From Streptomyces dioscori (GTDB lineage: Bacteria; Actinomycetota; Actinomycetes; Streptomycetales; Streptomycetaceae), in the NCBI RefSeq assembly GCF_003024195.1, contig NZ_KZ679038.1, positions 682,001 to 746,000 of the forward strand: a DNA stretch of 64,000 nucleotides, read 5' to 3'. The notes beneath the pieces are model-generated. The model did no database searches, was not told the DNA's origin, and was given only the letters and a program-made list of their open reading frames with translations. The translations under genes and the position numbers were made by a program. Of the stretch, positions 1 through 20,609 are shown in pieces (position 1 is the stretch's first letter; the number at the start of each line of letters is the position of its first letter).

Positions 1-21
1 TTGGTCCACGGTCAGTTTCAT
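1..21 (-). CDS. Start of a metal-chelate ABC transporter ATPase (partial)
   Basis: Only the first seven codons lie in the window, reading MKLTVDQ on the minus strand. The ATG overlaps the TGA of the upstream permease by four bases (ATGA), the usual sign of translational coupling. Because the two preceding genes are a FecB-type binding lipoprotein and a FecC-type permease, this is inferred to be the FecE/FepC-type ATPase that completes the importer. No domain can be seen, so the assignment rests on position and on the typical N-terminal beta strand. Confidence 0.6.
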
Positions 22-1043: not shown

Positions 1044-1060
1044 ACGGCCCGGGAGGCGCT

Positions 1061-2167: not shown

Positions 2168-2198
2168 CAGTAGTCGGAGGAGGTGACCGCCGAGTTCC
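2168..2198 (-). promoter_or_regulatory. ECF sigma promoter P3 (importer operon)
   Basis: On the minus strand GGAAC (2194-2198) is followed after exactly 17 bases by CGACTACTG (2168-2176). The same arrangement occurs upstream of the biosynthetic operon and of the copper/sigma operon. It lies 14 bases beyond the NRPS stop codon and about 70 bases before the binding-lipoprotein start, so the importer can be transcribed independently. GGAAC is a classic ECF-type -35 element. Assignment to the locus's own sigma factor is inference. Confidence 0.8.
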
Positions 2199-2211
2199 CG
2201 CGGGCCTGCGA

Positions 2212-5200
2212 CTACTTCGCCGGTGGGGGCAGCATTCCGCTGGTGACGCAGTGGTCGAGGTAACGGAGGACGAGGTGCCGGTCGACGGGCGGGCAGGTGA
2301 TGCCACTGCCGCGCAGACCGTTCCTCACGTTGTCCGAGCGGACGCGGCCCAGCCGGAGGTCCGGTCCGGCGGGCTCCTCGTCCCGGGAGTCGAAGAAGGC
2401 GAGCGTGGTCGCCGCAGGCGGGGCCTCAGCGCTCGGAGTGTCCGCGGAGCGCGCCAGTTCGGTGCGCCACCGGGCCGTGGTCATGCGGCGCAGCGGGTAG
2501 CCGTACTCCTCCAGCCAGTCGTAGAGGTCGCTCAGGCGTACCGGGGCGGTGGCCGCGTGGTTGAAGACGGTGGCGTTCGGGGGGCGTTGTACGAGGCTGA
2601 GGTGGATGAGCGCCTTGGCCACGTGGTCGACCGGGGTCCAGGTCTCCTCCTCGAACAGCTCGGGGACGATTCCTGCGGGCACTCCCGCGCGCAGCACGCT
2701 CCACAGGAAGTCCCGCTCGTCCACGTAACCGGTGGTGTACGGGCCGACGACCCGGCCGAGCCGGTGCACCGTGACCGGCAGGCCCCTCTCGGCGGCCTGT
2801 TCCAGCAGGCGTTCGGCCGCCCATTTCGACTGCTGGTAGCCGGACCGGAGTCCGGGGTGGGGCAGGAGGAAGGCCTCCGGTACCTCGCTGCTGTGCGCGA
2901 GTGACGGGGCGACCGAGAGGGTCGACACATGGTGCAGGGGGATCGAGTGTTCCGCCGCCATGCGCAGGAGTTCCCTGGTCGACTCGGTGTTGGCGGCGCG
3001 CAGAGTGGCGTACTCGCGCAGGATGCTGACGGTCGCCGCGCTGTGGACGATCGCCCGGCACGTACGGCCCAGTTCCGCGAAGTGCTTCGCGTCGAGGCCC
3101 AGTCGGGGGCGGGAGAGGTCCGAGGGGATCGCGGTGATGCGTTGGAGTGCCTGGTCCGGAAGGTGGATCCGGTGGGCCTTCAGGGCCTCCTGGATACGGG
3201 CGGTGGCCTCGGCGGGGGTCCGGGCCCGGACGGTACAGACCACTTCGGAATGACCGGCATCCGTACGCCCGCCCGTCCGCCCGCCCGTCCGCCCGCTCGC
3301 GCCCGTACTCGCGCCCGTCAGGAGCTCCGCCAGGAGGTGTACGCCGACGAAGCCCGTGGCACCGGTGAGGAGGATTCTGTCGGGCGTGTGCCCCGCCCGG
3401 GATCCGTCGCCGGGCCGGGGCCGGATGTCCGGGTCCAGGACGGCGTCCGCGAGCAGGGTGGCCGGCGGACCGGGAGCGACGGACAGCTGCCGTGCCCGTG
3501 CGTGGCCTGTCGACCGTGCCTGCCGTTCCTGCCGTTCCTGCCGTTCCTGCCGTTCCAGGAAACCCGCCAGTCCGGCGGGGGTCGGGTGCTGGAAGAGCCA
3601 GGCGACCTTCACCTCCCGGTGGAGTTCGGTACCCAGGCGGTTGGCGACCTGGATGGCCTGCAGGGACTGGGCGCCCAGGTCGAACACGTCGTCCTGCGCG
3701 GAGAGGGTCGTGATGCCGAGCGCCCGCTGCCAGGCCCCGGCGACGGCCCGCTCCAACGGGCTGTCGGGCGCGTCCTCGTACGCGACCGCCGTGCCGTCGG
3801 ACATGCCGTCGGTCGTACCGTCGGACATGTCGGTCTGTGCGCCGGGGCGGGGCGCCAGCCGCCCGAGCGCGTCGCGGTCGGTCTTTCCCGCGCCGGTACG
3901 AGGCACACGGTCCAGGAACTCGACCGCCGAAGGGATCATCGCGGCGGGGAGTGTCGCCCGGAGATGGTCCCTGAGTAGGGTTGTCGCAGGTGGCGGGCCG
4001 TCCGGGACGACGAACGCGATCAGACGCCGTGTCCCGTCCGCCAGTACCTGTCCGACCACGGCGGTGTCGCGGACCGCCGGATGGGTGAGGAGCGCGTTCT
4101 CCACCTCGGCGGGGTGCACACGGTGACCGCTGATCTTGAACTCCGCGTCCGACCGGCCCAGATACCGCAGCTGACCGTCGTCGCCGAGCCGTACCAGGTC
4201 GCCGGTGCGGTAGGCGCGGGGCGCTCCGGGGAGCCGGCCGAGTGGGGCGAAGCGGTACGCGTCCGGCGGCCGGGCCCCACGGTAACCGCGCGCCAGGTTG
4301 TCGCCCAGGAGGTGGAGTTCACCGTCGACGACGGCGGCACGGGTGCCGGGGAGCGGCAGTCCGATGGGGACGTCTCCCGCGGGGAGGGATTCGTCGTGCA
4401 GGTCGGCGACGGTGGCGACCACGGTCGCCTCGGTCGGCCCGTAGGTGTTGAACAGCCGCACCGAGGTGCCGACCGCCTTGCGCCAGCGGTCGACCCGTTC
4501 GGGCAGGGCGGCCTCTCCGCCGATCACGACGGTGCGTATCCCGGCGGGCAGGGCCGGGGCGTCGGCGGAGCCGGTCGAGAGCGCGTGGGCCAGTTCGTGC
4601 CAGTAGGCGGTGGGCAGGTCGAGGAAGCTGATCCGCAGCCGTGCGCAGGCGTCCAGGAAGCCGTGGACCGAGTCGGTCATGTCCTCGTCGCGGACGACGA
4701 GCGTGGCACCCCGGCACAGGGTGAGGAAGATTTCCTCGACGCTCGTGTCGAAGTGCAGGGGGGCGAACTGCAGGACGCGGTCCTCCTGCTGCGGGCCGTA
4801 GCGGTGGGTGGCGCCGGCCACGAAGTGCGCGAGGGCACGGTGGTCGATCTCCACGCCCTTGGGGCGCCCGGTGGAGCCCGAGGTGTGGAGGACGTAGGCG
4901 AGGTCGTCCGGCGCGGGTGCCGGAGGCTGCCGGGTGGCGGGCTCGTGGTGCGGCTCCACCGGCATCGCTTCGGTGGTCAGGACGAGCGTGGGGCGTGCGT
5001 CGTCGAGCAGTTCCGCCCTGCGGGCCGGAGTCGCGGCCGGGTCGAGCGGACAGTAGGCGGCTCCGGACAGCAGGACGCCGAGGACGGTGGTGACGGCGTC
5101 GATGCCACGCGGCAGGGCGACGGCCACCAGGTCGCCCCGGCCGATCCCCCGGCCCGTCAGCCGGCGGGCCGACTCCTGTGCTGCGTCCAGCAGTTGTGCG

Positions 5201-6672
5201 TAGGTGATCGCCCGACCGGCGTGCTCGACGGCGATGGATCCGCCGCGCAGGGAGGCGTGTTCGGCGATCAGGTCGAGGACGGGGTGGGCGGGGCTCGGCA
5301 GCGGACCTCCGTCCAGGACCTGGATGTCGGCGATGTCTGGCCGGGCACGCGTGCGCGGACCAGGGACGCCGAGCTCGCCATGGGGAGCGGCAATCGCCTT
5401 GTCGAGCAGCAGGAGCAGTTCGTCCAGGAGGGTGACGACGTCCGCCTCGTCGTAGAGGTCGGGGTGGGCGTCCACCGCGATGCGCAGGCCTCCGCCCTCG
5501 GCGCGGTCGTACACGTTGACGGAAAGGTCGTCGACCGGGCCCGCGGAGACGTTGTGGACGGTGCTGGGGTGTCCGGCGAAACGCAGGTCGTACGCGAAGG
5601 GCATGATGTTGACGCCCGGCCCGGACAACCTGCGCTCTCCGCCGACGAGCCTGAGGTCGCGCCGCAGTCGCTCGTAGCGGTAGCGCTGGTGCGGCAGGCC
5701 CGCACGCAGTTCGGCGGAGATCCGCAGTGCCAGGTCGCGCACGCTGTCCGACGCGGAGACGGTGACGCGCAGGGGCAGGATGTTGCGGACCATGCAGGGC
5801 ACGCGCAGGGCCACGGAACCGAGTCGGCCCATGGTGGGCAGGCTCAGGACGATCTCCGGTGCGCCGGTCGCGCGGTGCAGCTGTGCCGCCGTCACGGCCA
5901 GCACGACCTCCGACCAGGTGACCTTCAGTGCGCGGGCGACCGTTCGCAGGGCCCGCGTACGAGCTGCGCCGAGGTCGGCCACCTGACGGTGGAAGGTGCG
6001 TGCGGGCAGGGCCGTACGCCCGGCCGGCGTGGCCACCGGCGGGCGGTCGGCGAACCGGCCCGTCCAGTAGGCGCGGTCCTCGGCGAAGCGTGGCGACTCA
6101 CGGTAGGCGCGTTCCTCGTCCCGTACGGAGGCCAGGGTGCCGAAGCCGCTGTCGCCCGTCGGCTCGCCCTCCATCAGGGCGGTGTAGACCTGGGCGACCC
6201 GGCGGGCGACCAGCGACAGGCCGAAGCCGTCGAGGGCGATGTGGTGCACACGGTGGTACCAGAGGTGTTCCTCCGGAGCGATGCGCAGCAGGGCGTGACC
6301 GAAGAGCGGCCCCTGTGCCAGATCGACGGGGCAGGCCATGTCCGTGTCGATCCAGGCCAGGGCGGCCTCGTACGGGTCGGGCTCGGCGGTGAGGTCGGCC
6401 GTGTGCAGCCGCCAGTCCCCGGCCGGGGTTTCCCGCTGTCGGGGCCGGCCGTCCGCGTCGGCCACGAAGGAGACGTTCAGGGCCGGGGTCTCCGCGACGA
6501 CCTGGCGCAGGGCGGAGTCGAAGACGGCCGGGTCCACAGGGCCGGCGATGTGCACGTACTCGGCCGTGTTGTAGGCGGGGCTGTCCGGGTCCAGTTGCTG
6601 GCCGGTCCAGATGCCCTCCTGGGCGGCGAGCAGGGCGTGGCGGCCCGCCGTGCCGCCGTCATGCGCCGGCAC
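2212..6672 (-). CDS. scoA: Isonitrile lipopeptide NRPS, C-A-T-R (ScoA-like)
   Basis: Single-module nonribosomal peptide synthetase of 1486 residues. The condensation domain has HHIALDG at 143-149. The adenylation domain has the A3 core TSGSTGRPKG near 595, NTYGPTEA, the A8 region FKISGHRVHPAEVE and the A10 lysine in GKTDRDAL. A carrier domain has GAQSL near 1000. A C-terminal thioester reductase has TGATGFVG near 1105 and a YQQSK active-site motif near 1277. Aligning by eye to GrsA gives specificity residues DTEDVGTVVK; the acidic pair suggests a basic substrate such as lysine, as in known ScoA-type enzymes, where two isocyanoacyl groups are placed on lysine and the product is released by reduction to the alcohol. 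The GTG start has an AGGAGG ribosome site and overlaps the ACP gene by 14 bases. Linkers contain short repeats. Confidence 0.93.
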   Translation of the reverse strand: MPAHDGGTAGRHALLAAQEGIWTGQQLDPDSPAYNTAEYVHIAGPVDPAVFDSALRQVVAETPALNVSFVADADGRPRQRETPAGDWRLHTADLTAEPDPYEAALAWIDTDMACPVDLAQGPLFGHALLRIAPEEHLWYHRVHHIALDGFGLSLVARRVAQVYTALMEGEPTGDSGFGTLASVRDEERAYRESPRFAEDRAYWTGRFADRPPVATPAGRTALPARTFHRQVADLGAARTRALRTVARALKVTWSEVVLAVTAAQLHRATGAPEIVLSLPTMGRLGSVALRVPCMVRNILPLRVTVSASDSVRDLALRISAELRAGLPHQRYRYERLRRDLRLVGGERRLSGPGVNIMPFAYDLRFAGHPSTVHNVSAGPVDDLSVNVYDRAEGGGLRIAVDAHPDLYDEADVVTLLDELLLLLDKAIAAPHGELGVPGPRTRARPDIADIQVLDGGPLPSPAHPVLDLIAEHASLRGGSIAVEHAGRAITYAQLLDAAQESARRLTGRGIGRGDLVAVALPRGIDAVTTVLGVLLSGAAYCPLDPAATPARRAELLDDARPTLVLTTEAMPVEPHHEPATRQPPAPAPDDLAYVLHTSGSTGRPKGVEIDHRALAHFVAGATHRYGPQQEDRVLQFAPLHFDTSVEEIFLTLCRGATLVVRDEDMTDSVHGFLDACARLRISFLDLPTAYWHELAHALSTGSADAPALPAGIRTVVIGGEAALPERVDRWRKAVGTSVRLFNTYGPTEATVVATVADLHDESLPAGDVPIGLPLPGTRAAVVDGELHLLGDNLARGYRGARPPDAYRFAPLGRLPGAPRAYRTGDLVRLGDDGQLRYLGRSDAEFKISGHRVHPAEVENALLTHPAVRDTAVVGQVLADGTRRLIAFVVPDGPPPATTLLRDHLRATLPAAMIPSAVEFLDRVPRTGAGKTDRDALGRLAPRPGAQTDMSDGTTDGMSDGTAVAYEDAPDSPLERAVAGAWQRALGITTLSAQDDVFDLGAQSLQAIQVANRLGTELHREVKVAWLFQHPTPAGLAGFLERQERQERQERQARSTGHARARQLSVAPGPPATLLADAVLDPDIRPRPGDGSRAGHTPDRILLTGATGFVGVHLLAELLTGASTGASGRTGGRTGGRTDAGHSEVVCTVRARTPAEATARIQEALKAHRIHLPDQALQRITAIPSDLSRPRLGLDAKHFAELGRTCRAIVHSAATVSILREYATLRAANTESTRELLRMAAEHSIPLHHVSTLSVAPSLAHSSEVPEAFLLPHPGLRSGYQQSKWAAERLLEQAAERGLPVTVHRLGRVVGPYTTGYVDERDFLWSVLRAGVPAGIVPELFEEETWTPVDHVAKALIHLSLVQRPPNATVFNHAATAPVRLSDLYDWLEEYGYPLRRMTTARWRTELARSADTPSAEAPPAATTLAFFDSRDEEPAGPDLRLGRVRSDNVRNGLRGSGITCPPVDRHLVLRYLDHCVTSGMLPPPAK
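3520..3555 (-). repeat. 9-bp tandem repeat in the NRPS T-R linker
   Basis: Four consecutive copies of CTGCCGTTC (plus-strand reading) encode a repeated Glu-Arg-Gln tripeptide between the carrier and reductase domains. A second compositionally biased stretch, rich in Gly, Arg and Thr, is encoded near 3260-3310 inside the start of the reductase region. Both look like slippage-generated flexible linkers. Confidence 0.85.
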
Positions 6673-6961
6673 GGTCCACTCCCTCCTGACTGGTTTGGCG
6701 TGTCTGACCTGCCTGGCGTGCTTGGCGTGACTGACGTGCGGAGAGCAGGTGCCACCACTGGGCGAACGAGGTGCATTCGGCGAGTTCGACGAAGTTCACG
6801 TCCACGCCGGTCTCTCGCCAGCGTTCGATGAGGGTGACGATGCGGAGGGAGTCGAGACCCGCGAGGAGAGGGCTCTCTTCGAGGTCTACTTCGTCGGGCC
6901 GCTGGTACAGGTACTCCGCGAGGTCCGCGCGGAATCCGTCCAGGGTGAGGGGAGCAGGCAT
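6659..6961 (-). CDS. scoD: Acyl carrier protein (ScoD-like)
   Basis: Free-standing carrier protein of 100 residues with the phosphopantetheine site in LLAGLDSLRI (Ser38). In ScoA-E type pathways the ACP carries the alpha,beta-unsaturated acyl chain for glycine addition and later the isocyanoacyl chain for the NRPS. The carrier fold occupies about residues 5-78; the rest is a Gln/Arg/Ser-rich tail of short repeats not typical of ACPs. The start follows GAGAGA and a short hydrophobic first helix. The stop overlaps the NRPS start, so the two are probably made in a fixed ratio. It lies between the ligase and the NRPS, as expected for this family. Confidence 0.9.
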   Translation of the reverse strand: MPAPLTLDGFRADLAEYLYQRPDEVDLEESPLLAGLDSLRIVTLIERWRETGVDVNFVELAECTSFAQWWHLLSARQSRQARQAGQTRQTSQEGVDRAGA

Positions 6962-7046
6962 GTGGTCTCTCTCGTTGGCGCATGGCGCATGGCGCACGGT
7001 GCGTGACGCATGACGCCCGGCGCTTGGCGCTCGGGCTGTGCCGCGG

Positions 7047-8657
7047 TCAGTTGACCTTGCGGGCGGAGGCGCTCCAGAAGCGGTCGCGCAGTTCCCGGCG
7101 CAGGATCTTGCCGCTGGGGTTGCGCGGAACACTGTCGATCAGTTCGTAGCGGGCGGGCAGCTTGAATCCCGCCAGTTGCGGGACGAGGAAGGTGTGCAGG
7201 TCCCGGGGTGTGGGCCGGTGCTCGGGAACGGGGACGACGAAGGCGTGCACGTACTCGCCCCAGCGCTCGTCGGGGGCGCCGACGACGACGGCCTCGGCGA
7301 CGCCCGGGTGGCCTTCCAGGACGTTCTCGATCTCGGCGGGGTAGACGTTCTCGCCGGCGACGAGGATCGCGTCCTTGATGCGGTCCCGGATGACGACGTA
7401 TCCGTCCTCGTCGATGTATCCGGCGTCCCCGGTGTGGATCCAGCCGTCGACGAGGACTTCCGCGGTCTTCTCGGGCAGTCCCCAGTACTCCACCATGTGC
7501 GCGGGTGTGGCCAGGCAGAGCTCGCCGACCGCGCCCGGCGGCAGTTCGCGCCCCTCGCCGTCGATCACCTTGCCGCGCACGCCCGGATAGGGCCGTCCGG
7601 CCGCCTGCATGAGGGGACTGCCGGGAACATGGGCGGCCGGGGGCAGACAGACCGCGGTGTTACCGGTCTCGGTGAGGCCGTAGATCTGGGCGAACTCGCA
7701 GTTCACGACGGTGAGGCTCTCCTCCAGGAGTGCCTCGGAGATCGGGGAGCCGCCGTAGACGACCTTGCGCAGGGTGGTGAAGTCCCGTGCGCCGACGCCG
7801 GGTTCACCGAGCATCATGCGGAGCATGGCGGGCACGACGCAGGCGGTGGTGACGCCGAGGTCCCGGATGAGGGCGACGGCCTCGCGGGCGTCGAAGGCGC
7901 GCATCGCGACCACGGTCGTACCCGCGTTGAAGTTCTGGGTGGCCCACCACAGACCGCCGACGTGGAAGCCGGGGATGCCGATCAGCGCGATGTCACCGGT
8001 GCGCCAGTCGATCCAGTCCAGTTGCTCGCTCGCCAGCGCGTCCCGGATCGCGAAGAAACTGCGGTGGGCGAGGACGACACCCTTGGGCAGTCCGGTGGTG
8101 CCGCTGGTGTAGAGCTGGGCGACCGGGGTGTCGGGGGTGACGTGCGGTGCCGAGTCGGTGTCCGGGCGAACGCCCACGTCGATTTCGGGGAGGGCGGCCA
8201 GGTCGGTGTCCGGGTGGGACACCTTCCATGCGGAGAAGCCGTCGTCCAACGCGACGATCGTCTCAGGAGGCGCACTCGGCATCCCCTCGACGGTCGGCCC
8301 GAACTCGGCTTCCAGGAAGAGCAGTCGGGCCCGCGAGTCCCGCAGGATGTGGCTGACCTCGGGCGCGGCGAGCCGCCAGTTGACCGGAACGAGGACGGTG
8401 CCGCTCTTGGCGCACCCGAACAGCACCTCGTAGTAGTGCTCCGACTCCTTGCCGAGGTAGGCGACCCGGTCGCCCGGTGCGAGCCCGGCGGCCCGGAGGG
8501 CATGGGCGATGCGATTGCTCTCACTGTGCAGTTGCCCGTACGTCAGCGTGCGGCCCTCGCAGAGCACGGCGGGGGCGGTGGGCCGGCGCTCCGCGTGGAA
8601 GCCCGTGGTCCGGACGAGCGTCCGGAGCTGTGGGTGGTGGAGTCTGTCCGTGGTCAT
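7047..8657 (-). CDS. scoC: Acyl-ACP ligase (ScoC / FadD10-like)
   Basis: ANL-superfamily enzyme of 536 residues. Visible motifs are YTSGTTGLPKG (ATP binding), YGLTETGN, and the hinge and C-terminal region GYVVIRDRIKDAILVAGENVYPAEIE, followed by PSGKILRREL with the catalytic lysine. In the isonitrile lipopeptide pathway this enzyme adenylates a short unsaturated or beta-substituted fatty acid and loads it onto the partner ACP, not CoA. The start follows GGAGAGG. It sits directly downstream of the thioesterase gene and upstream of the ACP, the same gene set as the Mycobacterium tuberculosis nrp operon. Acyl length cannot be read from sequence. Confidence 0.9.
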   Translation of the reverse strand: MTTDRLHHPQLRTLVRTTGFHAERRPTAPAVLCEGRTLTYGQLHSESNRIAHALRAAGLAPGDRVAYLGKESEHYYEVLFGCAKSGTVLVPVNWRLAAPEVSHILRDSRARLLFLEAEFGPTVEGMPSAPPETIVALDDGFSAWKVSHPDTDLAALPEIDVGVRPDTDSAPHVTPDTPVAQLYTSGTTGLPKGVVLAHRSFFAIRDALASEQLDWIDWRTGDIALIGIPGFHVGGLWWATQNFNAGTTVVAMRAFDAREAVALIRDLGVTTACVVPAMLRMMLGEPGVGARDFTTLRKVVYGGSPISEALLEESLTVVNCEFAQIYGLTETGNTAVCLPPAAHVPGSPLMQAAGRPYPGVRGKVIDGEGRELPPGAVGELCLATPAHMVEYWGLPEKTAEVLVDGWIHTGDAGYIDEDGYVVIRDRIKDAILVAGENVYPAEIENVLEGHPGVAEAVVVGAPDERWGEYVHAFVVPVPEHRPTPRDLHTFLVPQLAGFKLPARYELIDSVPRNPSGKILRRELRDRFWSASARKVN

Positions 8658-8679
8658 TCGGCTTGCCTCTCCTCTCGTG

Positions 8680-9207
8680 TCAGGGGACGTTGACGAACGC
8701 CAGGACCGCTTTTCCGTCGCACCGGCCCGACGCGTCGTCCCAGTAGCGGTAGACGGTCTCCGCGTGCAGGAAGGGCGAGCCGTCGGCCAGGGCACGCCGG
8801 GTGACGGACCGGAATTCCATCTCCCCGCAAAAGGCACGGGGATTGACGGGGCGCCGGAAGTTCGCGGCGAAGCGGGCGATGAGAATGTCGGGAAGCTGAT
8901 GTTTCCAGAAATCGTCCAGCGTCCAGGATTCGAACCCCGTCAGCAGCCCCTCTTTCACGGACTTGGCGACGAGGTAATACATCATCTGGTTGTAGCAGAT
9001 GTTCACCTCGACGGAGTTCAGGTGCCCGGTGTCGTCGATGTAGCACGATTCCGGGATCGTGAACTCGCAGCGTGCGGAGGCCTGTCCGGCGGCCTCGGAC
9101 ACGACGACGGCCGAACGCAGGTACTTGCAGTGGTCCTTGTAGGGCGTGAGCACCCGCGCCAGCAGGTGCTCGTCCGTGGGGTGCTCGACGGCGAGGAGAG
9201 CTGTCAT
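8680..9207 (-). CDS. scoB: FcoT-like thioesterase (ScoB-like)
   Basis: Protein of 175 residues resembling the FcoT hot-dog-fold thioesterase of the nrp operon in Mycobacterium tuberculosis. Recognisable stretches are [23 protein letters not shown] and [12 protein letters not shown], followed by a second half with [11 protein letters not shown] and [15 protein letters not shown]. In ScoB-type enzymes the proposed role is to promote addition of glycine to the beta carbon of an unsaturated acyl-ACP and release of the beta-(carboxymethylamino) acid, the substrate of the isonitrile synthase. Its ATG overlaps the stop of the upstream scoE-like gene by four bases. Family membership is by sequence pattern; the catalytic residues were not assigned. 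Confidence 0.88.
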
Positions 9208-10094
9208 GCCGCCCCGATTCCGTCGTGGAGTCTGCGTTCGTCGTGCACGGTGACGCGGAAGGAGACGGTCGGCTCGGGTGTGGTCGTGTGCCGGGCGCGG
9301 TGGATGAGGCTGCGGTTGTCCCACACCAACAAGTCGCCCTGCTCGAAACCCTGGAGGTGGATGTTGTCGTGCGTGAAGGTCTCGTCGAGCTGACCGGTGG
9401 CCTCGAACAGCCGCTTGAGCAACTCCTCGTCGAGCGGCTCCCCGTCCCGGTCCTCGATGCCGACGGTGAATCCCTCACTGAGGTAGAGAACGGTCTCGCC
9501 GGTCATGGGATGGGTGAAGGTGGTCGGCTGTCTGACGGCCGGGGTCTTCCGCTCGACCTCCTCGATGATCTCGGAGATCGGCCGGTAGACGTCATGGGGC
9601 CGGATCTTGAAGTACTTGCGCACGGAGTGCCGGCAGTACGTTCCGTCGATCTCCTTCTTGAGCGCCTCGGGCAGACCTTCGTATGCCCGGCCCATGTCGA
9701 TGAAGTACGTACCGCGACTCTTCGCCGGAATCACTTGGGGGTATATCAGGGTGATTCCGAAGGGGTCGGGCATGAACTGGTAGTCGGCGTGCCAGAACTT
9801 GCCGGTCCTCGGTACGCCTATCTGCTGTCCGTTCTCCGGGACATTGGAGGAGACGAATATCTCCGTGACCTCCGGGTGGTGGTACATGGGCTCGTAGTAG
9901 GTCTCGGGTCGGCCCAGTCGCCTGCCCAGTGCGAGGAACTCCTGGGGGGAGAGGTCCTGTCCCTTCAGGACGGCGATCTTCTTCGTGTGGACGGCGTTCT
10001 TGAGGACGTCCATGTCGGCGTCGGAGGCGCCGGTGTGGTCGAAGCCCTCGACGATCACACCGATCGCGTCGCCGGGCTGGTCCTGGATCCGCAT
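9204..10094 (-). CDS. scoE: Isonitrile-forming Fe(II)/2-oxoglutarate oxidase (ScoE-like)
   Basis: TauD-family enzyme of 296 residues. Iron ligands are H102 and D104 in FWHADYQF and H265 in [12 protein letters not shown]280 in SFRVTV would bind 2-oxoglutarate. The residues I recall as important in ScoE (Tyr96, Tyr97, Tyr101, Arg157, Lys193, His299, Arg310) all have counterparts here at a constant offset of 30: Y66, Y67, Y71, R127, K163, H269, R280. That is strong evidence for true isonitrile synthesis by oxidative decarboxylation of an N-carboxymethyl amino acid, not generic hydroxylation. The start is the ATG after GAAAGG; the frame stays open further upstream but that part overlaps the exporter gene. 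It is coupled by ATGA to the thioesterase. Confidence 0.94.
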
Positions 10095-10188
10095 GGGATT
10101 GCCTTTCGCTTTTCTTGAGAGCTCGGCCGGGATACCGGCCGGCTGCTGGTACTGCCGGGAATGTTCGGGTTGCGCGTGGAGCGGGTGT

Positions 10189-11571
10189 TCAGGACGTGGT
10201 GACGTCCGCCGTCCGGTGGCGGGCGAACAGCGCGAGCGCGCCGCAGCCGATGCCTGCCGCGATGACGAGGACGGCGGTCCGGATGCCGTCGAGGAGGGCG
10301 GGGCCGGAGGCGTTCTGCCCGATGCCGCCGGCCACCGCGACCAGGAGGGCGAGGCCCACGGCACCGCCGACCTGCAGGGCGGTCGACGCCATTCCGGAGG
10401 CCACGCCCTGGTCACCGGGGGCGACTCCGGCGGACGCGGCGATCCACATCCCCGTCCAGGCGGCTCCTTGGCCGAGGCCCAGCAGGACGATCCCCGGCAG
10501 CAGCGCGGAATACGAGCCGTCCGACGTCAGCGCCAGAGCCAGTGCGACGGCTCCGGCGGCGCCCAGGGCCATCCCGCCGACCATCATGCGGCGGACGCCG
10601 AGGACGGCCACGGCCCGCTCACCGGCCTGCGTGCCGACGGCGACCACGAGGGCGGGCACCAGGAACGCGAGTCCGGTGGCGGCGGCGCCGTACCCCTGGA
10701 CAGAGCGGAAGTACAAGGTCAGGAAGTACGGGACCGAACTGAAGGTGGCGCCGAAGAGGGCGGCGACGCCCATGGCGGTGAGCAGACCGGGGTGGGCGAG
10801 CAGTCCTGCCGGTACGAGCGGATCACGGGCCCGGCGCTCCACTGCGCCGAAGAGCGTCAGCAGTCCGAGGGAGAGCACCGCGCTCAGGACGACCGTGGGA
10901 GTCCCCCAGCCCTCGGCGGGTGCCCGCACCAGCACGAACACCAGGAGGGTGATTCCACCCGTCGCGGTCAGCGCACCCGCCATGTCGAAGGTCCGCGAGC
11001 GGTCCCGCGGTCCGTCGGCGGGGAAGAGCAGCCGTCCCGCCACCGCGAGCGCTCCCGCCACGGGCACGTTGACGAGGAACACCGAAGGCCAGCCGAACGC
11101 CTCCACCAGCACGCCGCCGAGCAGGGATCCGAAGCACAGCCCGCCGGCTCCCGCGGCGCCCCAGACCGCGAGGGCACGGTTGCGGTCGCGCCCCTCCTCG
11201 TACAGGGTCCCGATCAGGGACAGCGTCGCCGGGAACAGCAGGGAACCCCCGATGCCCTGGACCGCCCGGACGGCGACGAGTACGCCGGGTGACTGCGACA
11301 GGCCGCCCACCAGGGACGAGCCCGCGTAGAGCAGCGCCGCCACGACGAACACGCGGCGCCGGCCGAGCAGGTCCGCGGCCCGGCCGCCCAGCAGCAGGAA
11401 GCCTCCCGTGGCCACGACGTAGGCGCTCACCACCCACTGGAGATCGTGGTCGGAGAAGCCCAGCCCGGCGCCGATGTCGGGCAGGGCGACGTACACGATG
11501 TTGTAGTCGAGCGAGATGACGAGTTGCCCCAGCGCCAGCACGGCCAGCGGAAGCCCGAGCGGATTGCGCAT
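10189..11571 (-). CDS. MFS exporter, DHA2/EmrB-QacA type
   Basis: Major facilitator protein of 460 residues with about fourteen helices. Motifs include [21 protein letters not shown] in the first helix, [15 protein letters not shown] (motif A) and the motif C-like helix near [18 protein letters not shown]. The ATG overlaps the stop of the upstream hydroxylase gene (ATGA), placing it firmly in the biosynthetic operon. The likely job is export of the finished isonitrile lipopeptide, or self-protection. DHA2 members carry many unrelated drugs, so the substrate is inferred from position only. Confidence 0.88.
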
Positions 11572-12335
11572 CACTCGGCCCGCATGAGCCGGCGCACCTC
11601 GGTCACGACGGCCTCCAACGCCCGGCGTTCCGGAACAGTGGTCTCCGGATGCCAGAGATCCATGAGCAGACAGGTCCGCGGTGCGGTGCCCTCGTTGCGT
11701 GCCTCGTGCTCGAAGGAGTAGTCGAAGAGCAGGCATTTCCCCTCCTCCCAGGAGCGCGTTTCTCCCGCGACCGTGATGCTGCACCCGTCGGGGACGTCCA
11801 CGGCGAGATGCAGGTTGATGCTGAAGTTCCACAGGTCGCAATGGGGTGCGATGACGGCGCCGGGCAACAGCGTGGAGAAATGGCATTCCAGGAGGGGGCA
11901 CAGGATTCCCGTCTCCACGGCGGATTCCTTCAGCACCCGGTATGCGGTGGGAGCGATACCGGCCGATTCCTCGACGAGGCCGCCCTCGTGGAAGAGATGG
12001 AGCGCCTGCCAGTTCCGCTGCCGGGTCAGATAGTGCTCGTAGTCCGAGAACGCCTCGCGGTGGGCGGCCCATGCGGACCCGATCTCCTTCTTGATCAGCC
12101 GATGGTTTGCCTCCAGTTCACGGACGACGGGAGCCAGTTCCGCGTAGACGTAAGGATCGTGCCAGGGGGTGGGAGAGATTCCCGGCATGACCCACTTGGC
12201 CGCCTTCTGCAGGGGATGCCTTTCCGCCCTGCCTGCCGCCAGCATCTGCTCGACCCGGTCGATCGCTTCCTTTCCGAACTCCGCTCTGATCGCGGCGAAG
12301 GCGTTCTCTATCTCTGGTGTCACACGGTTCTCCAT
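11571..12335 (-). CDS. Aspartyl/asparaginyl beta-hydroxylase-like enzyme
   Basis: Protein of 254 residues in the Asp/Asn beta-hydroxylase family (a non-heme Fe(II)/2-oxoglutarate fold). Visible signature: H165 and D167 in APHCDLWNFSINLHLAV, then GCSITVAGETRSWEEGK, distal H210 in DYSFEHEARN, R220 and DLWHPE. It is the first gene of the biosynthetic operon and couples by ATGA to the exporter. The ATG at 12335 is preferred over a GTG at 12398 because that one would lie at or above the predicted transcription start of promoter P1. It is not part of the minimal scoA-E set I know of, so it may hydroxylate the amino-acid scaffold or acyl chain. The substrate is unknown. Confidence 0.88.
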   Translation of the reverse strand: MENRVTPEIENAFAAIRAEFGKEAIDRVEQMLAAGRAERHPLQKAAKWVMPGISPTPWHDPYVYAELAPVVRELEANHRLIKKEIGSAWAAHREAFSDYEHYLTRQRNWQALHLFHEGGLVEESAGIAPTAYRVLKESAVETGILCPLLECHFSTLLPGAVIAPHCDLWNFSINLHLAVDVPDGCSITVAGETRSWEEGKCLLFDYSFEHEARNEGTAPRTCLLMDLWHPETTVPERRALEAVVTEVRRLMRAE

Positions 12336-12400
12336 GTCCCGCGTCCCGTCCCGCCGAATACCTCGCGGAGTGGTCGGCGTCCGGGTCTGCGCTTTCACCT

Positions 12401-12431
12401 CAGTAGTCGGTCACCGGGGTGCGGGAGTTCC
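12401..12431 (-). promoter_or_regulatory. ECF sigma promoter P1 (biosynthetic operon)
   Basis: GGAAC (12427-12431) and CGACTACTGAGG (-10 core 12401-12409) are separated by 17 bases on the minus strand, lying between the sigma-factor stop and the hydroxylase start. The -10 side is identical over twelve bases to promoter P2. The predicted leader before the hydroxylase ATG is about 60 bases. Confidence 0.82.
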
Positions 12432-12450
12432 CGGGAATTCGCGGGGTTTT

Positions 12451-13155
12451 TCATTGTGTCCGGGCGAGAAGCTCGACGAGGGTCGCGCGGGCGCGTGCCA
12501 CCCGTGAGCGGATCGTCCCGACGGCGCAGCCGCTCAATTCGGCGGCCTCCTCGTAGGCCAGTCCGGCCAGTTGGGTGAGCACGAACGCCTGGCGGCGCTC
12601 GGGCGCCAGCGCGTCCAGCAGATCGAGCAGCGCCACGCCCTCCTCGAAGCCGGGCAGTCCGGTCGGGCGGGCCCGGTCGGCACATGTCGTCCAGTCGTCC
12701 GTGTCGGCGAGCCGCGGCCGTGCGGCGGCGTACCGCAGGCTGTCGACGACCGTGCGGCGGGCGATGGACAGCAGCCAGGTACGTGCCGACGAGCGCCCCT
12801 CGAACCGGTGCAGGCTGCCCAGCGCCCGCAGGAACGTGTCCTGCGCCAGATCGTCGGCGGCCTGGTGGTCGGCGCCGACGCGGGTGAGATAGCGGACGAC
12901 GTCGGGACGCAGGGCGCGCACGAACCGGTCGACGGCGTAGGGGTCGCCGCCCCGGGCGGCCAGTGCCCAGGCGGTGGCCGCCTCGTCGCGCGCTTCCGAC
13001 GTGCCAGGTTCGACCGTGCCGGATCCAGACGCACCGCGTTCCGACCCACCGGATGTCGACGCACCGAACTTCGACGCACCGAATTTCGAGGCACCCGATT
13101 CCGACGCCCCGGATTCCGACGTGCCAAGCTCAGCCGTGCCGGGTTCAGATGTCAC
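12451..13155 (-). CDS. ECF-type RNA polymerase sigma factor
   Basis: Sigma-70 family protein of 234 residues. Region 2 includes DDLAQDTFLRALGSLHRFEGR and ARTWLLSIARRTVVDSLR. Region 4 includes LAPERRQAFVLTQLAGLAYEEAAELSGCAVGTIRSRVARAR, a helix-turn-helix. The first 50 residues are ten imperfect pentapeptides (S-x-x-G-A/T) absent from ordinary ECF factors. The GTG start overlaps the stop of the PCuAC-like gene (GTGA), so the sigma is the last gene of the copper operon. No typical anti-sigma gene adjoins it. Three matching promoter-like elements, including one in front of its own operon, suggest autoregulation and control of the whole chelator locus. In M. tuberculosis an ECF sigma (SigC) is reported to drive the related nrp operon, an instructive parallel. 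Confidence 0.92.
   Translation of the reverse strand: MTSEPGTAELGTSESGASESGASKFGASKFGASTSGGSERGASGSGTVEPGTSEARDEAATAWALAARGGDPYAVDRFVRALRPDVVRYLTRVGADHQAADDLAQDTFLRALGSLHRFEGRSSARTWLLSIARRTVVDSLRYAAARPRLADTDDWTTCADRARPTGLPGFEEGVALLDLLDALAPERRQAFVLTQLAGLAYEEAAELSGCAVGTIRSRVARARATLVELLARTQ
13001..13150. repeat. Ten 15-bp tandem repeats in the sigma factor 5' end
   Basis: Ten consecutive units of exactly 15 bases (for example GCACCGAACTTCGAC and GCACCGAATTTCGAG on the plus strand) make up the first 150 bases after the start codon region of the sigma gene. The length keeps the reading frame, so copy number can change without breaking the protein. Confidence 0.9.
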
Positions 13156-13664
13156 TGGCCCGGCCGGTCCACGACCGCGACGCTCCGTACGGCCCCGCTG
13201 CGCTCGAAGTGCAGGGTGACCGTCACGAGGTCGCCGATCCGCCAGTCCGCGTTCGCCGGCACGATCACGTCGAGGCTGTTCGGGGACATGGAGATGCTGT
13301 CGCCGGCCGCTACCGGGACCGAGGTCACCGTCCGCGCGGAGGCCGAGCGTGCGCCTGTCATGCGATGACGGCTGAGGCTGGTGGCGCCGTCGGCCTCCGT
13401 GGACGTCACCTTGAGCAGCCGGTCCGCGGAGCCTCCGGTGTTGGTGATCCGGAAGAAGGCCGCCGTCTCCGGGGTGTCGCCGGTGGGCAGGAACAGGCGT
13501 CCGCCGGTGACCGCGATCCGGGCCGGGCTGCCCGCGTTGCCGAGGACGGTCCAGATGCTCAGACCGCCGAGTGCGAGGACGGACGCGGCGACGGGCGCGA
13601 GTGCGGCGAGCAGGGTGTCGGTGAGCCGGCGGCGCGTCGGCCGCCAGAGGGTCTGGTCGGTCAT
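13152..13664 (-). CDS. Membrane-anchored PCuAC-like copper chaperone, degenerate site
   Basis: Protein of 170 residues with an N-terminal membrane segment (about residues 16-42) followed by an extracytoplasmic beta-sandwich of the PCuAC/DUF461 type: AAFFRITNTGGSADRLLKVTS, SLSRHRM, VPVAAGDSISMSPNSLDVIV. In the classic family the metal is held by an H...M...M...HxM set; here the first His and a nearby Met (HRM) remain, but the central Met and final HxM are not recognisable. It may bind copper differently or act as a partner protein. The ATG overlaps the stop of the copper ATPase gene (ATGA) and its own stop overlaps the sigma start. Confidence 0.82.
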   Translation of the reverse strand: MTDQTLWRPTRRRLTDTLLAALAPVAASVLALGGLSIWTVLGNAGSPARIAVTGGRLFLPTGDTPETAAFFRITNTGGSADRLLKVTSTEADGATSLSRHRMTGARSASARTVTSVPVAAGDSISMSPNSLDVIVPANADWRIGDLVTVTLHFERSGAVRSVAVVDRPGQ

Positions 13665-15991
13665 CGGGTACGCCTCCGGGCAGTGGGTGAGGGCTGCCAG
13701 GCGCGCAGGCGCAGGCTGTTGGCGACGACCAGGACCGAGCTGGCCGACATGGCCGCCGCGGCGAGCATCGGGTTGAGCAGGCCGACCATGGCGAGCGGCA
13801 CGGTGACGGCGTTGTAGCCGAAGGCCCACACGAGGTTGACGCGGATGGTGCTCAGCGTGCGCCGGGCGAGCAGGACCGCGTCCGCGAGGGCTTCGATGCC
13901 GCCGCGCACCAGGGTGACGTCGGCGGCCCCGATGGCCACGTCGGTGCCGCTGCCCATGGCGATGCCCAGGTCGGCGCCGGCCAGCGCGGCGGCGTCGTTC
14001 ACCCCGTCACCGACGACCGCGACCCGGTAGCCCTGCTCCTGAAGGTCCCGTACGAGGTCGGCCTTGTCCTCGGGTGTGCGGCGGGCGTGCACCTCGTCGA
14101 TCCGCAGGGCGGACGCGACGGCCCTGGCGGGCGCCTCCCGGTCGCCGGTCGCGAGCACGGGACGTACTCCGAGGTGGCGCAGCCGCTCGACGGCCCGGTA
14201 GCTCCCGGGCCGTACGACGTCGCCGATCGCGATCAGTGCTTCGACCGTGCCGTCGACCCGGACCATGACGGGTGTGTGGGCGGCGGCCTCGGCCGCCGCC
14301 AGGGCGTCCGCGAGTGCGGCGGGCACCTCGTCGTCCGGGGCTAGCACTTCGACGAGCCGCCCCTCGACCCGGCCGCGCACCCCCCGCCCCGGCAGAGCAC
14401 GGAACTCGCTCACCCCGGGCGACCCATGAACCTCAGACGTTTCAACCGCTTCCGGAACTCCCGCACCTCCCGGCCGCTGTCGACCCGCGGCCGACTCCCG
14501 TCGCGCGTACGCGGTGACGGCCCGGCCGAGCGGATGTTCCGAGCCCTGTTCCACGGCTCCCGCCAGCCGCAGCACCGCGTCCCTGCCGAGTCCGTCCGGT
14601 ACGGCGGTGACCGCGGCGACGCTCATACGGCCGGAGGTGAGGGTGCCGGTCTTGTCCAGGACGACGACGTCGACATGCTGCAGCCCCTCCAGTGCCTGCG
14701 GGCCGGTGACCAGGACGCCGAGCTGGGCGCCCCGGCCGGTCGCGGCCATCAGCGCGGTCGGGGTCGCGAGGCCCAGTGCACAGGGGCAGGCCACCACCAG
14801 GACGGCCACGCACGCGGTGACGGCGGCCTGCGCGTCGGCGCCCGCGCCCAGCCAGAACCCCAGGGTGGTCACGGCCAGCGCCAGCACGACGGGCACGAAC
14901 ACACCGGCCACCGTGTCGGCGAGCCGTTGGGCGCGCGCCTTGCCGGTCTGCGCCTCGGTGACCAGCCGGGTGATACGGGCGAGCTGCGTGTCCGCGCCGA
15001 CCGCCGTGGCCCGTACGAGGAGCAGCCCGCCGGCGTTGACGGCCCCGCCGACCACGGCCGAACCCGGCCCGACCTCGATCGGTTCGGTTTCACCGGTGAC
15101 CAGGGACAGGTCCACCGCGGAGCTGCCCTCCGTCACCTTCCCGTCGGTGGCGACCCGCTCCCCCGGCCGTACCACGAATACCTGACCGGCCCGCAACTCC
15201 GCGATGGGGACGAGCCGTTCGGTGCCGTCCGCGCGGACCGCCACCTCCTTGGCGGCGAGCGAGGCCAGCGATCTCAGCGCAGCCCCGGTCCCGCGCCGGG
15301 CCCTCGCCTCCAGGAAACGGCCCGCCAGGACGAACAGCGGTACGCCGACCGCCGCTTCGAGGTAGAGGTGCGCGACGCCGTCCGGGACGGAGGGCACGAG
15401 CGTGAACGGCATCCGCATCCCGGGGTCACCGGCTCCGCCGAGGAAGAGGGCGTACGCCGACCAGGCGAAGGAGGCCAGTACGCCCAGCGACACCAGGGTG
15501 TCCATGGTGGCCGCGGAGTGCCGCAGACCGCGTACCGCGCGGGTGTGGAAGGGCCAGGAGCCCCATACGGCGACGGGCGCGGTGAGGGCGAAGCAGAGCC
15601 ACTGCCAGTTGCGGAACTGGAGCGCGGGCGCCATCGACAGGACGAGTACGGGCAGGGCGAGCAGGGCCGTGACGACCAGCCGGTCACGCGCGGACCTCGC
15701 GTCCTCGGAACCGTCGTCGTCCGGTGTCTCCCGCTGCTCGCCCTTCGGCGTGGGCGGTTCGGGTACGGCCGCGGTGTATCCGGCCTTCTCCACGGTCGCG
15801 ACGAGTTCACCGGGGCCGATGCCCGCCGGATGGGTCACGCGGGCCGTACCGGTGGCGAGGTTGACGGTCGCCGTGACCCCCTCCAGCTTGCCCAGCTTCT
15901 TCTCCACTCGGCTCACACAGGCCGCGCAGGTCATCCCGCCGACGGTCAGATCGGTGGTGACCAAGGGGGTGGTCACCGGCTCCGCGCCCAT
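13661..15991 (-). CDS. P1B-type copper-transporting ATPase (CopA/CtpB-like)
   Basis: Heavy-metal P-type ATPase of 776 residues. An N-terminal HMA domain has GGMTCAAC (Cys22, Cys25). Eight membrane helices include the CPC metal site in VVACPCALGLATPTALM near 400. Phosphorylation motif DKTGTLTSG lies near 443, SEHPLG follows, and the hinge GDGVNDAAALAGADLGIAMG lies near 660. The last helix carries YNAVTVPLAM and MSASSVLVVANSLRLR, as expected for Cu(I) pumps. Usually such enzymes export Cu(I) to the cell exterior, for detoxification or for loading secreted cuproproteins. Coupling with a PCuAC-like protein and with a chelator pathway favours delivery to extracytoplasmic targets, but this is inference. 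Confidence 0.93.
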   Translation of the reverse strand: MGAEPVTTPLVTTDLTVGGMTCAACVSRVEKKLGKLEGVTATVNLATGTARVTHPAGIGPGELVATVEKAGYTAAVPEPPTPKGEQRETPDDDGSEDARSARDRLVVTALLALPVLVLSMAPALQFRNWQWLCFALTAPVAVWGSWPFHTRAVRGLRHSAATMDTLVSLGVLASFAWSAYALFLGGAGDPGMRMPFTLVPSVPDGVAHLYLEAAVGVPLFVLAGRFLEARARRGTGAALRSLASLAAKEVAVRADGTERLVPIAELRAGQVFVVRPGERVATDGKVTEGSSAVDLSLVTGETEPIEVGPGSAVVGGAVNAGGLLLVRATAVGADTQLARITRLVTEAQTGKARAQRLADTVAGVFVPVVLALAVTTLGFWLGAGADAQAAVTACVAVLVVACPCALGLATPTALMAATGRGAQLGVLVTGPQALEGLQHVDVVVLDKTGTLTSGRMSVAAVTAVPDGLGRDAVLRLAGAVEQGSEHPLGRAVTAYARRESAAGRQRPGGAGVPEAVETSEVHGSPGVSEFRALPGRGVRGRVEGRLVEVLAPDDEVPAALADALAAAEAAAHTPVMVRVDGTVEALIAIGDVVRPGSYRAVERLRHLGVRPVLATGDREAPARAVASALRIDEVHARRTPEDKADLVRDLQEQGYRVAVVGDGVNDAAALAGADLGIAMGSGTDVAIGAADVTLVRGGIEALADAVLLARRTLSTIRVNLVWAFGYNAVTVPLAMVGLLNPMLAAAAMSASSVLVVANSLRLRAWQPSPTARRRTR

Positions 15992-16293
15992 CAGCGGTCT
16001 CCCTCATGCGTGCCACCCATGCCGCCCATGTCCCCGCCGTCCCCGCTGTCCCCCATGTCGTCGGCCCCGCCGGAGCCGGGGCCGGTGCCGGAGTCCGTGC
16101 CGGTGCCGCTGCCGCTCGTACCGGTGGTGCCGTGCATCGAGGGTGCGACGGGCCCGGCGGACACTCCGGCGGCGTAGGACGCCGTGAAGACGAGGGCCAG
16201 CAGCAGGAGGAAGCCGCAGAGGGCGGGCGGGGGTGCCGCCTTTCTCAGCAGCACGGCCGCACCGCTGTCGGGGGATTGCCGGGGCTCGTCCAT
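15991..16293 (-). CDS. Small one-helix membrane protein with Met/His/Asp-rich tail
   Basis: Protein of 100 residues: a short basic N-terminus with one Cys (PPPALCGF), one membrane helix (about 25-45), then a low-complexity Gly/Ser/Thr linker and a tail with MHG, DDMGD, GDMGGMGG and THEGD clusters. The tail resembles a loose copper-binding sequence outside the membrane. The ATG follows TGGAG at good spacing. It is the first gene of the copper/sigma operon and overlaps the ATPase gene by ATGA. I do not recognise a named family. Possible roles are copper acceptor for the ATPase or sensor/anti-sigma for the ECF factor; neither is shown. Confidence 0.78.
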   Translation of the reverse strand: MDEPRQSPDSGAAVLLRKAAPPPALCGFLLLLALVFTASYAAGVSAGPVAPSMHGTTGTSGSGTGTDSGTGPGSGGADDMGDSGDGGDMGGMGGTHEGDR

Positions 16294-16626
16294 CAACCGC
16301 GTCTCCAGGTCACGTCGTACGGCGTCGCCGGGAGCGCGCCGAACCGCCTCAGTAGTCGGGCCGGCCGCGAGTGAGGTTCCTCGGTGCGCCTGTGGCCCGC
16401 GTCACACGAGTGGCGGCCGTTCCGGGCGTGGCTTCAGATCCGGGCATGGCTTCAGAGGTGCGGGCCCGCCCGGCGCCCGCGGACACGCCGGTGCTCCCGC
16501 AGCCGTGCCACACGGTCCCCGACCCGACGTGCGCGACCGGTGAGGCGGAGGTCACCGAGGCCGCGAGGGCAAGGTCACAGCCCTCGCCTCTGCTGTGACT
16601 CAAGCAATCTGCCCTAGCATCCGAGC
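16294..16626. other. Divergent intergenic region between copper operon and mutA
   Basis: This 333-base gap separates the minus-strand copper/sigma operon from plus-strand mutA. It contains promoter P2 and no convincing coding frame: a short open frame on the plus strand (16371-16598) has poor composition and no family resemblance. No palindrome of the CsoR or CopY type was found by eye. Confidence 0.6.
16350..16380 (-). promoter_or_regulatory. ECF sigma promoter P2 (copper/sigma operon)
   Basis: GGAAC (16376-16380), 17 bases, CGACTACTGAGG (core 16350-16358) on the minus strand. The leader to the ATG at 16293 would be about 50 bases. Because the operon ends in the sigma gene, this element implies positive autoregulation. 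Confidence 0.82.

Positions 16627-18434: not shown

Positions 18435-18435
<1 letters not shown>
16627..18435 (+). CDS. mutA: Methylmalonyl-CoA mutase small subunit
   Basis: Protein of 602 residues, the MutA partner of the heterodimeric B12-dependent mutase that interconverts succinyl-CoA and (R)-methylmalonyl-CoA. Matches include [10 protein letters not shown] at the start, [63 protein letters not shown] and [30 protein letters not shown]. The C-terminal cobalamin-like domain lacks the DxHxxG motif, as expected for the non-catalytic subunit. The stop overlaps the start of mutB (TGATG). In Streptomyces the enzyme feeds polyketide extender units and propionate metabolism. Confidence 0.95.

Positions 18436-20605
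<2,170 letters not shown>

Positions 20606-20609
<4 letters not shown>

Follow-up and report, generated by a model that had tools for sequence, protein, structure and literature searches.

A stretch of 64,000 nucleotides (nt) from the 10.24-Mb genome of Streptomyces dioscori (G000:C1:682001-746000, forward strand), here called the window, carries three copies of an element that resembles a promoter of the extracytoplasmic function (ECF) sigma factor type. They stand before a likely importer operon, a biosynthetic operon and an operon of copper-related genes that ends with an ECF sigma gene. The locus therefore raises the question of which sigma factor reads these elements, how far the regulon reaches and what signal switches it on. 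We consider it probable that sigma factors of the SigC type would fire four such elements, three in the window and one elsewhere in the genome, for copper scavenging at copper shortage, with a membrane-protein leader encoded upstream of most related sigma genes serving as the copper input. This reading starts from the motif with its constant spacing of 17 bases, from the genes that it precedes and from its association with the sigma in the genus and in Mycobacterium-like relatives; from these we infer that the sigma reads the motif. Copper shortage is the likely signal, judging by gene content and mycobacterial precedent.

The promoter element and its distribution

The element GGAAC-N17-CGACTACTG is present in exactly three copies in the window, all on the minus strand: P1 (2168..2198) before the importer operon, P2 (12401..12431) before the biosynthetic operon and P3 (16350..16380) before the operon for a small protein, CopA, PCuAC and the sigma. 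The leader sequences between the motif's last base and the chosen ATG codons measure 69, 65 and 56 nt, respectively, in agreement with the 50-70 bases given in the initial annotation, whose coordinates (2198-2168, 12431-12401 and 16380-16350) and identical 17-base spacing were also borne out. Its notation of the -10 half needs adjustment: the spacing is 17 with CGACTACTG and 16 with CCGACTACTG, whose -10 takes in the C that precedes CGACTA, and the literal string of N17 followed by CCGACTACTG matches only at 2-3 mismatches.

A search of the window for GGAAC-N15-19-CGACTA gave three matches against a shuffle mean of 0.04, and 0 of 100 shuffles reached three. Genome-wide this bare core is common, with 21 sites against 18 for the reversed control, whereas the exact 31-base form has only four copies and the form with a pyrimidine (Y) after GGAAC has four matches against none for the reversed control; the signal is thus carried by the fixed spacing and the CTG extension. 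The fourth exact copy (G000:C11:262067-262097) stands 56 nt ahead of the ATG of a gene encoding a PepSY_TM/PepSY protein of 482 residues, so that the predicted regulon extends outside the locus. The earlier statement that the element occurs nowhere else consequently holds for the exact string within the window and fails for the genome. The regulon can also no longer be called self-contained, given this unlinked promoter and a paralogous sigma factor on contig C4 (67% identical) that may read the same sites. A looser whole-genome pattern gave 11 matches against 3 in the control; four are the known sites, three lie within coding frames, three are copies of one element starting GGAACTGCGCAATC and one has no clear gene, and no additional regulon member was accepted for this reason. 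The GGAACTGCGCAATC element recurs between genes at L185 and L186 (both contig C3) and L188 (contig C6) of the S. dioscori genome and fits the loose motif; no co-directional gene was found downstream within the stretch read.

GTDB genomes were scanned for the sigma, which provided 75 loci, 60 from Streptomycetaceae (1.12 Mb) and 15 from outside the family, the latter mostly alphaproteobacteria and Chloroflexi with one Cellulomonas. GGAAC-Nk-CGACTA was counted in the 60 loci for k = 8-27; k = 17 gave 47 sites in 34 loci and each other k gave 0-1, and 60 permuted -10 strings matched a mean of 0.48 loci and a maximum of 5. Three of the 60 loci are motif-free contigs of one S. alfalfae genome, and removal of two of them as duplicates leaves 58 loci with the same 47 sites. 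The 15 loci outside the family hold no GGAAC/CGACTA motif at spacers 16-18. The 51 distinct sites, in which spacers and flanks vary, give the consensus GGAAC[T/C]-N16-CGACTACT(G), the base after GGAAC always being T (31 sites) or C (20 sites). A dyad count with no preset motif was performed on 64 regions upstream of PepSY, CopA, substrate-binding protein (SBP) and AspH genes, with 90 coding nt of each gene included. Its top dyad was GGAA-N17-CCGA, and GAAC-N17-CGAC was present in 42 of the 64 regions against 3.3 in the background. Other high-ranked dyads (GCCT...AAGA) are taken for conserved coding sequence because of the 90 nt included.

Co-occurrence was assessed in 150 genomes of the genus, S. 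dioscori included, with the sigma called at E 1e-40. The strict 31-base motif was found in 66 genomes, with 100 sites in all, against 29 sites in 27 genomes for the reversed control, and the sigma was detected in 106. Motif and sigma are both present in 62 genomes, the motif alone in 4, the sigma alone in 44 and neither in 40 (p 7.7e-9 in Fisher's test, which treats the genomes as independent and ignores relatedness), and the association amounts to 0.91 against 0.09 sites per genome. Sites within 20 kb of a sigma gene number 44 of 100, or 41 of 96 when S. dioscori is left out. The co-occurrence that had been proposed as a check is thereby found in 62 of the 66 motif-bearing genomes, and the motif is very likely real and linked to this sigma family.

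The downstream genes were read at 29 of the 96 sites outside S. dioscori, one per genome (loci L134-L162), and comprise 11 PepSY_TM genes, 5 binding proteins, 2 FecCD permeases, 1 ABC ATPase and 1 PCuAC; the others are a leader-like protein (270 nt away), 5 methyltransferase clusters and 3 chance-looking cases. Those at L141, L149, L161 and L162 were confirmed by Pfam. With a loosened -10, the motif is found upstream of 12 of 13 PepSY and 8 of 9 SBP genes (control spacings at most 0.2 mean), and a P3-type motif also precedes CopA in the relatives L059-L062. As predicted from their domains, the motif targets are in kind metal-uptake and copper-handling genes, and the initial view of an ECF-type promoter set is supported across relatives, its associations being with this sigma family and with copper-related genes. 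CrpH of Bordetella, which also belongs to the PepSY_TM proteins, supports copper oxidases (PMC13038864).

The sigma factors and their leaders

The window sigma (12451..13155, minus strand; Pfam) is a SigC-like ECF factor with a low-complexity N-terminal extension. Its nearest PDB sequence is the SigC fragment 2o7g of Mycobacterium tuberculosis (E 2e-22, first of 36 matched), and its closest relatives among named genomes are from Streptomyces. The frame is open over its full length, keeps the conserved columns of the family and is 92% identical to S. tauricus over residues 48-234. Cysteines were considered as a copper site; one is invariant (63/63 rows with the residue), lies in region 4 and is uninformative.

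SigC of M. tuberculosis controls ctpB and ppe1-nrp from near-identical promoters and has a copper-starvation phenotype (PMC7924339), and CtpB is argued to import copper (PMC9147137). The window is alike in combining a SigC-like ECF sigma, a copper P-type ATPase gene and diisonitrile nrp-type genes with matching promoters. In two loci, L169 and L170, whose genomes we call Mycobacterium-like because PPE-family genes stand beside nrp-type genes, GGAAC-N17-CGAC has 8 sites, and the counts at other spacings are 0-3. At five sites the gene that follows after 9-89 nt is a PPE (2), HMA or P-ATPase (2) or ScoE-like (1) gene, and the PPE and HMA/P-ATPase genes were confirmed by domain search; one more site precedes a large membrane-protein-looking open reading frame (ORF) and two have no clear target. 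With motif, gene set and sigma shared with mycobacteria, these systems look like one old actinobacterial copper-starvation circuit. The arrangement differs, in that sigC of M. tuberculosis is monocistronic and not autoregulated, with no anti-SigC known (PMC7924339), whereas the window sigma lies inside the cluster behind the motif, the window cluster has an ABC-type importer and most Streptomycetaceae relatives have an RGPP leader.

This leader is an unannotated membrane protein, rich in Met and His and with R(G/A)PP at its end, whose gene directly precedes the co-directional sigma gene in 54 of 58 non-duplicate Streptomycetaceae loci. It is present in 56 of 62 sigma loci overall, with the motif exactly six residues before the stop in 48 of these; it is missing from the window, from the Mycobacterium-like L170 and from L062, L099, L113 and L089, the last of which lies at a contig end. 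Eleven examples are 233-281 residues long and lead from hydrophobic helices through a Met/His-rich loop and a further long helix to the R(G/A)PP tail. Among 780 plausible ORFs of the sigma loci, 38 end in R[AG]PP and 37 of these resemble the leader. In 44 chosen aligned leaders R(G/A)PP is present throughout (42 RGPP, 2 RAPP), in 42 of them exactly six residues from the end, and His14, His63, His170 and Met166 (numbering of P0006) are invariant. A structural model predicts four long helices, short C-terminal ones and an unstructured loop at 77-159. Homologues number 2645, and no Pfam family passes; for DUF2946, no match was reported in 7 leaders up to E 5, although HMMER filters may drop weak ones. 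The 70 nt after the leader stop had z below -2 in 29% of cases against 3.6% for a control within the sigma gene (n=55, mononucleotide shuffles).

In the relatives, a small membrane protein with R(A/G)PP close to its C terminus is encoded ahead of a co-directional gene and, by analogy, the R(G/A)PP tail is a predicted hallmark of translation arrest. RAPP/RGPP-dependent arrest has been shown for seven Streptomyces lividans proteins in several contexts, among them SLIV_33595 and SLIV_33605, four-transmembrane (four-TM) proteins before ECF sigma genes that stall in vitro and in B. subtilis and whose conserved regions are called of unknown functional relevance (PMC12992588). The leaders are like these two in being four-helix membrane proteins with a C-terminal RAPP/RGPP before ECF sigma genes, a match made by description only. 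Unlike those two as published, the sigmas here are tied to a copper-related regulon, and the window sigma has no peptide. Distant leader relatives in the S. dioscori genome at L175 (contig C15) and L176 (contig C6) have RGPP ends and stand before genes that we name, by eye, YcnI-like and DsbA-like; such settings are also reported in S. lividans (PMC12992588).

In the window, the junction at which close relatives carry the leader gene spans 13004..13158 (minus strand), as determined by blastn against S. tauricus L059. The two sequences match up to where PCuAC ends and then again from the sigma core onward; the junction between the two genes measures 153 nt in the window against 1071 nt in L059, and holds no leader homologue and no R[AGSD]PP ORF. 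The leader of the window sigma is very likely absent by loss. Contig C4 of S. dioscori encodes a leader and paralogous sigma pair, the sigma in an open frame. Since the leader is missing in the window and the pair is kept on C4, the window sigma is probably a second stage, which would be started by the C4 pair through P3 and then sustain itself. The order CopA-PCuAC-(leader)-sigma is found in 12 of 60 loci, the window included, and 10 of the 12 have a loose motif before CopA.

Autoregulation, as predicted initially, is plausible for the window, because the operon that the sigma gene closes has the motif in front of it, and does not extend to the family. The motif is present in none of 60 sequences in the 600 nt upstream of the sigma gene, and in the 500 nt upstream of the leader gene the strict form is present in 0 of 56 and the loose form in 1 of 56, against 0.8 for control spacings; these motif-free regions rule out autoregulation as a general rule. 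In 9 of 62 loci a motif near the sigma stop points back into the sigma gene, with 0-1 at control spacings (L066, L071, L072, L091, L095, L097 and L106, with looser matches in L092 and L178). It is possible that these give sigma-driven antisense RNA against the sigma's own gene.

Copper sensing and alternative explanations

As a mechanism, we propose a ribosome-based form of copper sensing in which an RGPP stall would license a SigC-type sigma to switch on scattered chalkophore, importer, PepSY_TM and chaperone genes, with the window sigma as amplifier; this could as readily prove right as wrong. At low copper, synthesis of the leader would remain arrested at RGPP, and a ribosome halted there would permit transcription or translation of the downstream sigma. 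Copper bound to the Met/His-rich loop, or to the conserved His and Met residues of the helices, would release the stall, as proposed for CruR. The SigC-type sigma would then act on GGAAC-N17-CGACTA promoters of genes for the chalkophore, the likely importer, PepSY_TM and copper-handling proteins. The sensor module would reside at C4, as the leader with the paralogous sigma, and would switch on the window operon via P3, whose leaderless sigma would form a self-amplifying, feed-forward second stage. Whether the leader is a copper sensor by arrest we judge to be about evenly balanced.

CruR of Bordetella pertussis is a copper-sensing nascent exported protein with a C-terminal stall motif that controls downstream genes (PMC9426467), and its operon also contains a PepSY_TM gene (PMC13038864). 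CutF of Rhodobacter capsulatus follows the same logic with the opposite sign, copper favouring the stall (PMC9973294). Both control structural genes directly, whereas the target of the leader would be a sigma and hence a scattered regulon. In the open-licence literature searched, as far as titles and abstract openings tell, neither a copper-starvation sigma of Streptomyces nor a copper role for sigma-linked arrest peptides was found. How M. tuberculosis senses copper deficiency is described as an open question (PMC7924339). The window motif joins this question to the S. lividans arrest peptides: in the loci examined, the sigmas behind arrest-type leaders are SigC-like, and the promoter motif that accompanies them precedes copper-related genes. 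If the mechanism is true, it would be an answer, in this genus, to SigC-type copper sensing with no known anti-sigma, and to our knowledge the leader would be the first arrest peptide driving a whole sigma regulon. What the work offers is a promoter motif open to testing, a list of regulon genes, a candidate for the sensor and a search string for metallophore clusters, with one candidate found.

Several points weigh against this reading. The leader model is of low confidence (mean pLDDT 60.6, pTM 0.34), the leaders match the S. lividans proteins by description, and the portions of PMC12992588 used contain no copper test on the arrest proteins. As CutF acts opposite to CruR, the sign of the leader's copper response is uncertain. 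The ATPase of the window could be an exporter. The window sigma scores 153.5 bits on the NCBIfam SigC model (NF007231; cut-off 219) and best on PRK12535, at 168.1 bits below a cut-off of 290; SigC is the best model for the C4 paralogue, at 185.1 bits also below cut-off, so both are labelled SigC-like and not SigC. The strict motif is lacking in 44 of the 106 sigma-bearing genomes, so that members escape the strict form or a variant is recognised by some of the sigmas, and one of the four motif-only genomes (G099) has the motif before a PepSY_TM gene. Even with the loosened -10, only 15 of 25 CopA, 6 of 17 AspH and 5 of 16 MFS upstream regions are covered, and none of those of ScoE, ScoD, ligase, NRPS (nonribosomal peptide synthetase), PCuAC and FecCD genes, which are mostly inner operon genes. 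The ScoE/ScoD-like clusters L171 and L172 have no excess at the 17-base spacing; the L172 genome also holds a motif-bearing cluster of this kind.

That the three elements are a chance or repeat-derived coincidence and no promoters would agree with a bare core hardly commoner genome-wide than its reversed control (21 against 18). Chance is rejected on the shuffles, the spacing count in the 60 loci and the preset-free dyad count (42 of 64). Across the 51 distinct sites the two elements and the distance between them are constant and the sequence of spacer and flanks differs, the motif is associated with the sigma, and we regard such a coincidence as next to negligible. It is quite unlikely that the four promoters are read only by the C4 paralogue, the window sigma being silent or having another target. 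The paralogue does have an open frame, an upstream leader and the higher SigC score (185.1 against 153.5 bits), and the window sigma has its low-complexity extension and no leader; yet the latter is full-length, with conserved columns kept and 92% identity to S. tauricus, and its gene order recurs in 12 of 60 loci, 10 of them with the loose motif before CopA.

A further explanation takes the Met/His-rich leader for a classical membrane anti-sigma, or a copper sensor that binds the sigma, with RGPP as an incidental feature. Gene adjacency and membrane character would suit an ECF sigma and anti-sigma pair in general, and the leader has no Pfam domain. An anti-sigma would, however, have no need of an R(G/A)PP that is kept in 44 of 44 aligned leaders, in 42 at six residues from the end. 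Distant relatives with RGPP precede genes other than sigma genes (YcnI-like and DsbA-like), folding is stronger in the 70 nt that follow the leader stop than in the control within the sigma (29% against 3.6%), and translation arrest is reported for four-TM proteins encoded ahead of ECF sigma genes in S. lividans (PMC12992588); on this evidence an anti-sigma is unlikely. Alternatively, the regulon could answer copper excess, with a CopA exporter and PCuAC under a detoxification sigma and the isonitrile sequestering copper. The small protein and the leader are Met-rich, and the ATPase scores above the cut-off of the copper-translocating model and hits that of the CopA exporter below cut-off (475.8 against 1316). 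A response to excess becomes very unlikely in view of the motif before importer-type and PepSY_TM genes, of the control that mycobacterial SigC exerts over ctpB and the nrp operon in copper starvation (PMC7924339), of the import function argued for CtpB (PMC9147137) and of the support that CrpH gives to copper oxidases (PMC13038864).

Genes of the window and further observations

All genes behind the three promoters lie on the minus strand. In transcription order, the P3 operon begins with a small protein (15991..16293) that has one hydrophobic segment and a Gly/Asp/Met-rich tail and, from its sequence, matches no Pfam or NCBIfam family at E 0.001; the tail is likely extracytoplasmic and copper-binding. 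It is followed by a copper-type P1B ATPase, CopA/CtpB-like (13661..15991), with a CPC motif and an HMA domain bearing MTCAAC, which was assigned by Pfam and passes NCBIfam TIGR01511 (490.5 bits, cut-off 397). The PCu(A)C copper chaperone comes next (13152..13664; Pfam PF04314, start chosen by eye), and its stop codon overlaps the start codon of the sigma (GTGA).

The P2 operon consists of genes for an aspartyl/asparaginyl beta-hydroxylase-like (AspH-like) protein (11571..12335; Pfam PF05118), an MFS transporter that is the likely product exporter (10189..11568; PF07690), a TauD-like enzyme (9204..10109; PF02668), ScoD, a (2E)-enoyl-acyl-carrier-protein glycyltransferase (8680..9204), an AMP-binding acyl-AMP ligase (7047..8660; PF00501), a probable acyl carrier protein with an LDSLRI motif, read from the sequence alone (6659..6961), and an NRPS (2212..6672) with condensation, adenylation, carrier and NAD-binding reductase-type domains (C-A-T-R) by Pfam. 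The starts of the AspH-like, MFS, TauD-like and ligase genes were set by eye. The TauD-like enzyme we take to be of the isonitrile-forming ScoE type, and ScoD exceeds the cut-off of the NCBIfam equivalog NF049938 (302.2 bits against 250), which makes this a cluster of the diisonitrile lipopeptide (chalkophore) kind. Pfam domains give the TauD-like ScoE, AMP ligase and NRPS with terminal reductase that such clusters have, and the P2 product is likely a diisonitrile chalkophore. Known diisonitrile lipopeptide clusters include those of SF2768 and INLP, with ScoA-E. The window is like them in its ScoD equivalog, TauD-like ScoE, acyl ligase, probable carrier protein and C-A-T-R NRPS, and in the window these stand together with the AspH-like and MFS genes, the FecCD importer and the copper/sigma operon behind one motif.

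The P1 operon encodes a substrate-binding protein (Peripla_BP_2; 1061..2098; Pfam PF01497, start by eye) and a FecCD permease (18..1178; PF01032), together likely an importer, followed just beyond the window by an ABC-type ATPase ORF, seen by eye in L057. Upstream of P3 and transcribed away from it, two methylmalonyl-CoA mutase-type ORFs occupy 16627-20609 (plus strand) and give no sign of belonging to the copper set.

Among the other ScoE/ScoD-like clusters, the ScoE proteins of L171 and L172 are 54-61% identical, and these clusters are possibly other isonitrile pathways under other control. A second gene set behind the motif was observed beside a leader-sigma pair at L177:7413-11946 and L178:7516-9420. 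It consists of a methyltransferase and a pyridoxal phosphate (PALP) enzyme, in L177 also with an ATP-grasp ligase and an MFS transporter, and its first gene was also found at L145, L148 and L157; we regard it as a candidate for a new copper metallophore cluster. Finally, DJ-1/PfpI-type proteins follow the motif at L136 (Pfam) and at L090 and L114 (by eye), and a nickel/cobalt-transporter-like protein lies 293 nt after the motif in L082 (by eye).

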